Of a stretch of DNA of 48,037 nucleotides, positions 6,361 to 7,866 are shown in pieces. A program made the position numbers and the translations under genes. The notes beneath the pieces were generated by a model. That model saw only the letters and a program-made list of their open reading frames with translations, made no database searches and was not told the DNA's origin. The stretch spans positions 146,353 through 194,389 of the forward strand of contig JAPLOM010000063.1 in assembly GCA_026400755.1 (NCBI GenBank), in the 5' to 3' direction. This DNA is from Alphaproteobacteria bacterium (GTDB lineage Bacteria > Pseudomonadota > Alphaproteobacteria > CADEGL01). Every line of letters starts with the position of its first letter. Position 1 is the stretch's first letter.

Positions 6361-6560
6361 GAGATGCTCTGATCAGTTTCGTACTGTTTAAACCTGCACG
6401 ATCCCGCAGAGTTCCACTCTGATAACGACTTAAACCGGCCTGCTTTGGCATACAGGGCTCAACGTGAGGGGCTTTGCGTGAGTGCATCCCCGCTTTCATT
6501 GGTGTAATCGTTTGCCCGTCGCGCGCGCCGCGCGGCCGCCAGTTCGAGAGCAAGGTCGCC

Positions 6561-7256
6561 ATGCAAGGTAAAGCCGTGAATCCAGACACCGTCCCGGTCC
6601 TCGACGCCATTGCCGGGCGCAAGTCCGTCCGCCGCTTCCTGCCCGATCCGGTGCCGGAGGAGACGGTACGGAAGATCCTGGAGGTTTCGGCGCGCGCGCC
6701 CTCGGGCACGAACTCGCAGCCCTGGCTCGTTCATGTCGTCACGGGCGCCGCGCGCGACCGGGTCAGCCGCGAGGTGATCGCGGCGGCCAAGGCGGGCGAA
6801 CGCAAGGAGGAATACGAGTATTCGCCGCACCCGTGGTTCGAGCCCTATGTCTCGCGCCGGCGCAAGGTGGGCTACGACCTCTATGCTCTTTACGGAATCA
6901 AGAAAGAGGACATGGCGGCGCGCACGGCCGCGGCTTTGCGCAACTTCGAGTTTTTCGGCGCCCCCGTCGGCTTGTTCGTCAGCATGGACCGCAGGTTGTT
7001 ATTCGGCTCATGGCTCGACGTCGGCATGTTTATGCAGAATGTGATGGTGGCCGCGCGCGGCTTCGGACTCGAGACCTGTCCGCAGGAAGCCTGGTGCTCC
7101 TACGGCCCCGCCGTTCGTCGCGCATTAGACGTCCCGGACGACCAGATCCTCATGTCCGGCATGTCGCTCGGCTACGAGGACACATCCGCGCCCGAGAACA
7201 AGTTGGTCACGGTGCGCGAGCCGCTGGAAGGCTTCGTGAAGTTCTTGAAGGATTAA
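6561..7256 (+). CDS. nitroreductase-family FMN oxidoreductase
   Basis: 231 residues. RKSVRRFLPDPV near the N-terminus and ARAPSGTNSQPW just after it are the FMN phosphate- and ring-binding signatures of NfsB-type nitroreductases. The C-terminal half has the expected GLETCPQEAW and MSLGYED segments. Members are homodimeric and use NAD(P)H to reduce nitro compounds, quinones or enones. I chose the ATG at 6561 because homology begins there. It stands alone with no obvious operon partner; true substrate unknown. Confidence 0.85.
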   Translation: MQGKAVNPDTVPVLDAIAGRKSVRRFLPDPVPEETVRKILEVSARAPSGTNSQPWLVHVVTGAARDRVSREVIAAAKAGERKEEYEYSPHPWFEPYVSRRRKVGYDLYALYGIKKEDMAARTAAALRNFEFFGAPVGLFVSMDRRLLFGSWLDVGMFMQNVMVAARGFGLETCPQEAWCSYGPAVRRALDVPDDQILMSGMSLGYEDTSAPENKLVTVREPLEGFVKFLKD

Positions 7257-7369
7257 GAAAGCCGCAGGGCACCGCTGCTGGATAGTCGTTATGACCGGCT
7301 TTTTCGTGTATGCTTAAGGCGGTATTGAAGTCGTCGGTTCGACCATGCACCAAGATCCGGGGTGATCTC

Positions 7370-7528
7370 ATGAATCAGTCAAATGGTCTCTCTCGAGAGT
7401 TCGATGAATTTTCCGACGATCTCTCCGACGAGGCCCTAGACCGCGCACTTGAAGCCAGGGGCTGTATCCCCGGCGGGACGTTTTTTTCTAGGAATTCTAG
7501 CGGCGCCGAGCGAAGCACCGCTCGATGA
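7370..7528 (+). CDS. small RiPP-precursor-like peptide 1
   Basis: 52 codons. The N-terminal 25 residues include EFDEFSDDLSDEALDRA, almost the same as in the next small gene, while the C-termini differ completely (GCIPGGTFF... here). An acidic conserved leader with a short, variable, Cys-containing tail is the usual look of a ribosomally made, modified peptide precursor, but no modifying enzyme or exporter is nearby. GGGGTGA lies 5 bp before the ATG. A T7 run at 7481-7487 falls in the tail; one extra T would end the peptide at 40 residues. Not recognised as a named family. Confidence 0.45.
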   Translation: MNQSNGLSREFDEFSDDLSDEALDRALEARGCIPGGTFFSRNSSGAERSTAR

Positions 7529-7581
7529 GGACCGAAGCAACTTGATCTGCCGGATGTCGACAAAAAAGGAGGGGAGTTACC

Positions 7582-7701
7582 ATGAATCAGCCGGATGAAC
7601 GGACTGAAGATTTCTCCGAGTTTTCCGATGAGCTGTCCGATGAGGCGCTCGACAGCGCGCGGGAGCAGCTCATGTGTTACTGCGCGTCCAGGCGCTCCTA
7701 G
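7582..7701 (+). CDS. small RiPP-precursor-like peptide 2
   Basis: 39 codons plus stop, with a strong AAAGGAGGGG ribosome-binding site 8 bp ahead of the ATG, which argues that it is translated. EDFSEFSDELSDEALDSA repeats the leader of the preceding peptide, and the tail MCYCASRRS is short with a Cys-Tyr-Cys motif. Too short for routine gene callers. Conserved acidic leader plus divergent Cys tail suggests a modified peptide or a small signalling or regulatory peptide; this is inference. Confidence 0.5.
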   Translation: MNQPDERTEDFSEFSDELSDEALDSAREQLMCYCASRRS

Positions 7702-7721
7702 ATAGTATGATTGACGTCATG

Positions 7722-7742
7722 TCTGGCGGCTAACCCGCCAGA
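7722..7742. repeat. hairpin, 8-bp stem, downstream of the peptides
   Basis: TCTGGCGG-CTAAC-CCGCCAGA, a perfect inverted repeat 20 bp after the second peptide's stop. No T tract follows on either strand, so termination is possible but not shown. Confidence 0.35.
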
Positions 7743-7776
7743 TCATCGCGCCATGGAACGGAAGCAAGTTGGCGAT

Positions 7777-7802
7777 CGGGCACCGGCGGAAGCCGGTGCC
7801 CG
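7777..7802. repeat. strong hairpin, 11-bp stem with GGAA loop
   Basis: CGGGCACCGGC and GCCGGTGCCCG flank a GGAA tetraloop (GNRA class), a very stable RNA fold. It sits between the peptides and the 3' end of the acyl-CoA dehydrogenase, so it may mark or protect transcript ends in this convergent interval. It lacks the T run of an intrinsic terminator. Confidence 0.4.
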
Positions 7803-7866
7803 AAGACCGTTAACGCCTGTTCGACGGCGGCTGTTCCTTGGTAACGTCGTTCCTTGATAGGGCGCC

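Follow-up and report, generated by a model that had tools for sequence, protein, structure and literature searches.

Two small genes with a shared leader and different tails

We analysed a stretch of 48,037 nucleotides of alphaproteobacterial DNA (the window; C10:146353-194389), which belongs to an assembly of 87 contigs and 3.36 Mb (G000). Over positions 1-25923, which hold the window's first 20 called genes, Pfam indicates ordinary metabolism and transport, and for this interval the claim that the window holds no maturase, so that maturation would proceed in trans, holds. The original prediction had also described two small open reading frames at 7370-7528 and 7582-7701, 53 bp apart, with a common acidic leader, different tails and a very strong ribosome-binding site ahead of the second. 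All of this was borne out by the sequence, in which a Shine-Dalgarno element, AAGGAGGGG, lies 7 nt before the ATG of peptide 2. The features of the locus are listed below.

7370-7528, plus strand: peptide 1, putative precursor (MNQSNGLSREFDEFSDDLSDEALDRALEARGCIPGGTFFSRNSSGAERSTAR), 52 aa; supported by sequence, homology and a syntenic orthologue in the congener G001
7370-7441, plus strand: leader of peptide 1
Plus strand, after this leader: tail of peptide 1, GCIPGGTFFSRNSSGAERSTAR, with one Cys
7421-7438, plus strand: L(X)4L motif of peptide 1, LSDEAL, a motif known to bind the RRE of LynD (PMC12455567)
7566-7574, plus strand: Shine-Dalgarno element AAGGAGGGG of peptide 2, seen in the sequence and also present in G001
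7582-7701, plus strand: peptide 2, putative precursor (MNQPDERTEDFSEFSDELSDEALDSAREQLMCYCASRRS), 39 aa; supported by sequence, homology and a G001 orthologue
7582-7653, plus strand: leader of peptide 2
Plus strand, after this leader: tail of peptide 2, SAREQLMCYCASRRS
7633-7650, plus strand: L(X)4L motif of peptide 2, LSDEAL; Leu18 and Leu23 are invariant in alignment A1
7721-7743, plus strand: GC-rich hairpin 3' of peptide 2, a possible terminator or RNA element, kept in G001
7776-7803, plus strand: second strong hairpin, with no convincing Rfam match, kept in G001

A longer alternative frame for peptide 1 begins with an ATG at 7310. We place the start at 7370 because the G001 orthologue begins at the same point, with GTG. 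Both hairpins sit between peptide 2 and a convergent acyl-CoA dehydrogenase gene, and the region that holds them (7700-7830) gives a folding signal of z -6.4. A scan for sigma-70 promoters found none.

Conservation and selection in a congener

G001 is a congener of the window's organism, represented by the MAG RBC064. It carries both genes in the same order and adjoining the same acyl-CoA dehydrogenase, with the orthologue of peptide 1 at L043:7079-7219 and that of peptide 2, whose tail reads MCYCASKS, at L043:6872-6988 (both on the minus strand). Between the two genomes, peptide 2 has accumulated five synonymous and two nonsynonymous changes and one codon indel, which leave MCYCAS intact; with counts this small, dN/dS is about 0.09 (P=0.005), indicating purifying selection. 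In peptide 1 the leader is more constrained than the tail (0.20 versus 0.58, again from small counts). Small as they are, these selection figures argue that the pair is translated.

A paralogous family with one leader and hypervariable tails

In a six-frame search of the whole 3.36 Mb genome, peptide 2 as sole query retrieved peptide 1 (E=4e-5), and contigs C31 and C62 yielded additional members. Because this search recovers relatives and the congener keeps the pair in synteny, the resemblance between the two peptides is not a product of chance. The genome holds nine family genes in total, and six of them lie together on C31 in one array that has a trpD-Ldh pair on one side and trpC on the other; MHRDNDLSGDKEFDGALSDESLDRADAALCICRPNAPLIDG and MDNVRKPAENEPEFTDELSDEALDRVSGRADSTGGACVVSRQTWGG are two of its members. 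This array (L009:4800-9600) repeatedly contains leftover pieces of trpD (3' end) and of a neighbouring cupin-like gene (5' end), and therefore grew by local duplication within the trp region. The C62 member (L010:1099-1197, minus strand) has lost its tail after LTDEALDRTPSGAA; its orthologue in G001 (L048:6257-6400, minus strand) retains a two-Cys tail.

The prediction had turned on the existence of homologues that keep the leader and vary the tail, and we found many. Among 60 relatives, a profile built from the nine G000 members (A1) matched G001 together with G003 and G004, which belong to the same family as the window's organism; the remaining matches were weak and mostly within long open reading frames. 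A wider profile (A4), run against 385 genomes of the class at a cut-off of E<=0.001, was positive in five: G000, G001, G003, G004 and G063, the last a member of another family. Two further MAGs, one of Rhodoplanes piscinae (L091) and one from soil (L094), came from scanning 84,980 species genomes. G063 encodes at least 38 precursors (L183-L191) with the leader MPKTDIKKIESEDVAELSDEALDR, up to ten of them in tandem (for example, L185:8583-10235). Most arrays in the relatives also lie among genes of primary metabolism; this is true of the arrays in G003 and G004, where no maturase was recognised by eye among the neighbours. Plasmids searched for relatives of the leader yielded nothing convincing.

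A census of 147 precursors, drawn from the retrieved stretches of seven alphaproteobacterial genomes, revealed 147 different tails. Cys occurs in 139 of the 147, with several tails having none or a single one, and makes up 9.4% of tail residues versus 0.1% of leader residues; the tails also contain 14% Gly, 10.1% Ser and 7.0% Thr. The CxC pattern is found in 36 tails, compared with 19.3 expected from 2000 shuffles (sd 3.7, maximum 31). The leader is about 22-33 aa long, has no domain and is built around the core LSDEAL; L, D, E, L and D are invariant positions of the leader, and L(X)4L is present in 143 of the 147 precursors. In G063 the tails often finish with SPAE, APSD or a comparable ending that may be a follower sequence.

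Sample members of each type matched nothing in NCBIfam and the relevant Pfam models, and the sample sequences scanned did not match the NHLP and Nif11 leader domains (TIGR03793, TIGR03798/PF07862), although queries this short score weakly in either case. The leader string DELSDEALDR was not found in the literature searched, and the leader has no direct match among solved structures. The architecture is nonetheless the conserved-leader, hypervariable-core design of RiPP precursors. Given the many homologues with a conserved leader and variable, Cys-bearing tails, both peptides are very likely RiPP precursors, as originally proposed.

A TruD/LynD-like cyclodehydratase lies beside precursors in two relatives

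Radical-SAM, YcaO and lanthipeptide genes had been named as partners to look for, and the search for YcaO genes returned a linkage: a TruD/LynD-like E1-YcaO lies beside precursors of this family in two relatives. In G001, two precursors (L133:3240-3562) are flanked by a tRNA-Ser(GGA) on one side and, on the other, by a Band-7 gene, a cyclic-peptide exporter (TIGR01194) and, about 3 kb away, the E1-YcaO gene (L133:6603-8957), so that the exporter lies between precursors and enzyme. The enzyme is a 784-aa fusion that scores above the cut-offs of both TIGR03604 and TIGR03882 and aligns over nearly its full length, N-terminal winged helix included, with TruD (4bs9, 1.5e-141) and LynD (4v1t, 4.7e-139). 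The Rhodoplanes locus (L091) has two precursors and, at a distance of about 2 kb, an E1-YcaO gene that adjoins a SagB dehydrogenase; no SagB dehydrogenase was seen next to the G001 enzyme. By eye, we noticed no PatA/PatG-like protease among the listed genes of either locus (L091 and L133). The Rhodoplanes locus also holds an AurF-like N-oxygenase gene (L091:6425-7396, plus strand) between its TOMM genes and its two precursors.

The two enzymes are 66% identical and, in a tree of 17 E1-YcaOs, form a clade of their own (100/100) apart from the other alphaproteobacterial and the cyanobacterial enzymes. Rough estimates put the probability of finding precursors and enzyme this close by chance at about 2% in G001 and 0.1% in Rhodoplanes; both depend on an assumed locus count, and the Rhodoplanes figure also on an assumed genome size. 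Other alphaproteobacterial E1-YcaOs have no precursors of the LSDEAL-leader family nearby. The precursors that RefSeq annotates beside them are NHLP-like or Nif11-like and have L(X)4L immediately ahead of the tail, as LSELDL, LEELEL and LNEAQL and, in Thalassospira, as LSDEQL. A plasmid cluster of Thalassospira marina (L275:1911-8238) encodes a LanM, an E1-YcaO, a P450 and one precursor whose long leader ends in ADLSDEQLNQ and is followed by a Cys-rich tail.

L(X)4L mediates the binding of the PatE leader to LynD and is enough for short precursors (PMC12455567); the L(X)4L region is also motif 2 of NHLP/N11P leaders (PMC2887384). The presence of precursors beside an E1-YcaO in two relatives supports the reading of the window pair as RiPP precursors matured in trans and points to the azoline type (TOMM) as their likeliest chemistry. 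That a TruD-like enzyme carries out such chemistry in the window's lineage is, in our judgement, somewhat better than an even proposition.

The enzyme interval in the window's genome

No YcaO was found in the G000 assembly, which is interrupted on either side of the stretch that would correspond to the G001 enzyme locus. A tRNA-Ser and a LysR/dioxygenase pair bracket that locus in G001; of these flanks in G000, the tRNA-Ser lies 264 bp from the end of contig C82 (L143:11026-11289), and the start of contig C57 (L252:1-302) is near the other. The enzyme interval is therefore unassembled in G000. The terminal 264 bp of C82 have no resemblance to the G001 island, and hence the content of G000 at this site may differ, which suggests that the tRNA-Ser interval is a variable island. 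A search of G000 for pepN gave no match and is uninformative alone. The nitroreductase gene just upstream of the pair (6474-7256) was considered as a candidate azoline dehydrogenase and set aside, since its product does not match the SagB model.

Do other maturases read the same leader?

The tens of precursors in each of G003, G004 and G063 coexist with no TruD-like YcaO, which raises the alternative that the window pair, too, consists of RiPP precursors served by a different maturase, the leader acting as a general tag as is reported for NHLP and Nif11 peptides. We consider this unlikely, though well worth keeping in view. N11P leaders are reported with TOMM or with lanthionine machinery depending on the genome (PMC2887384), and one G063 array has a SAM methyltransferase gene between precursor genes (L189:4747-5622, minus strand), a candidate tailoring enzyme. 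G063 also shows a conserved SPAE/APSD-like C-terminus. G003 has a standalone YcaO only, and neither G004 nor G063 has a TOMM YcaO. The G003 protein is SagD-like (L069:6544-7869, plus strand) and scores below the TIGR03604 cut-off; its gene overlaps a sirtuin-like gene and is far from any precursor. Across the 385 genomes of the class, co-occurrence of E1-YcaO and precursors is not significant (Fisher P=0.18), because the other alphaproteobacterial E1-YcaOs have other precursors.

Against a different maturase, the other enzyme classes proposed at the outset did not fare well. The LanC domain (PF05147) is absent from G000-G004 and was detected in the controls, so that a lanthipeptide class was rejected for these genomes. 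Neither G000 nor G003 has proteins with the SPASM domain, and those of G001 and, weakly, G004 are not beside precursors; a radical-SAM RiPP was likewise rejected. In the third or so of the G063 genome that was covered, radical SAM genes belong to the pqq operon, to another PqqE-like gene, to polysaccharide-type clusters and to housekeeping functions, none of them linked to precursors, and this partial survey turned up no linked maturase apart from the SAM methyltransferase. The E1-YcaO is the sole linkage between a maturase and these precursors that we found. For G003, G004 and G063, either the assemblies miss the enzyme or the leader is read by a different one, for which Nif11 leaders offer a reported precedent; their lack of a TruD-like enzyme means that other maturases may serve the same leader.

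A second alternative is that the peptides are unmodified, class-II-like microcins, with a double-glycine leader for a C39-peptidase transporter and secreted tails capable of forming disulfides. The L(X)4L motif is itself compatible with double-glycine leaders handled by other enzymes, and peptides of G003 and G004 place L, L, G and G at positions -12, -7, -2 and -1, the same spacing as in the pre-Gly-Gly motif of NHLP/N11P and class II bacteriocin leaders (PMC2887384). However, the window peptides lack Gly-Gly, several tails have no Cys or just one, and the exporter linked in G001 is of the TIGR01194 type, so that we regard a microcin function as improbable. Small intracellular regulatory or metal-binding peptides, which a location among primary-metabolism genes, acidic N-termini and Cys motifs might evoke, are a very remote prospect, given the E1-YcaO linkage in two genomes and the lack of any common metal-site pattern among tails that all differ while the leader stays fixed.

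Discussion

We favour a model in which a TruD/LynD-like E1-YcaO acts in trans on this leader family, and consider it probable on balance. The two window peptides belong to a paralogous family that joins one leader to hypervariable, Cys-bearing cores, and LSDEAL is the predicted dock for the RRE (winged-helix) domain of an E1-YcaO encoded elsewhere in the genome. The enzyme would use ATP to convert Cys, and possibly Ser and Thr, of the tails (CYCASRRS and GCIPGGTFFSRNSS) to azolines, after which the leader would be cut off and the product would leave the cell; in the congener, the neighbouring ABC exporter of the cyclic-peptide type may carry out this last step. A single enzyme would thereby serve many precursors scattered through the genome. 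For the window's organism, the action of this enzyme, the azoline chemistry, the export and an activity of the product are inferred.

The logic of one leader, many tails and a maturase in trans is already known from prochlorosins and from NHLP/Nif11 peptides. The NHLP (TIGR03793) and Nif11-derived (TIGR03798) precursors of Haft et al. 2010 (PMC2887384) likewise form large paralogous sets with hypervariable tails rich in Cys, Ser, Thr and Gly and an L..L motif directly before the tail; they, too, are not always clustered with a cyclodehydratase and have alternative maturases in different genomes. Their leaders, however, are long, with a nitrile-hydratase-like or Nif11 domain (PMC2887384), whereas those of the present family are short and domain-less; the MprE leader measures 81 aa (PMC12455567). 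Prochlorosins comprise many ProcA peptides with one leader and diverse cores served by a solitary, promiscuous maturase (PMC10783134), a plan like the one proposed here, but ProcM is of the LanM type, in contrast to the LanC-free genomes G000-G004, and the ProcA leader is of the Nif11 type.

The fused E1-YcaO of G001 is related over nearly its full length to TruD and LynD of the cyanobactin pathways (TruD/LynD/PatD with PatE/TruE), whose precursors have a short L(X)4L leader and a hypervariable core in common with this family. Cyanobactins differ in several respects: here there is one tail per precursor, the host is alphaproteobacterial, the window pair has no RSII/RSIII or other repeated flanking sites, and no PatA/PatG-like protease was seen by eye beside the enzyme at L091 and L133. 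Linear azol(in)e-containing peptides and other TOMMs, such as microcin B17 and plantazolicin, have the combination of cyclodehydratase and SagB found at the Rhodoplanes locus, and tails rich in Cys, Ser and Thr and in CxC as here; the present precursors differ in being many and mostly unlinked.

Neither the precursors as a family nor the enzyme clade paired with them appears to have been described in the libraries and literature searched. Genome mining that starts from enzymes overlooks the family because the annotation models applied here miss the genes and most of these lie far from biosynthetic enzymes. If the proposed pairing is correct, well over a hundred natural core sequences would be reachable through one short tag, and the matched cyclodehydratases of G001 and Rhodoplanes could be expressed directly; one could then also ask directly what maturase acts on the leader where the TruD-like enzyme is missing. 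We suggest only tentatively that one short leader, in tens of copies per genome and in unrelated alphaproteobacterial families, is read by different, partly undescribed maturases. Were this so, the family would amount to a large combinatorial library of natural peptides whose maturase can be exchanged: some lineages would use a TruD-like cyclodehydratase, and G003, G004 and G063 another enzyme.
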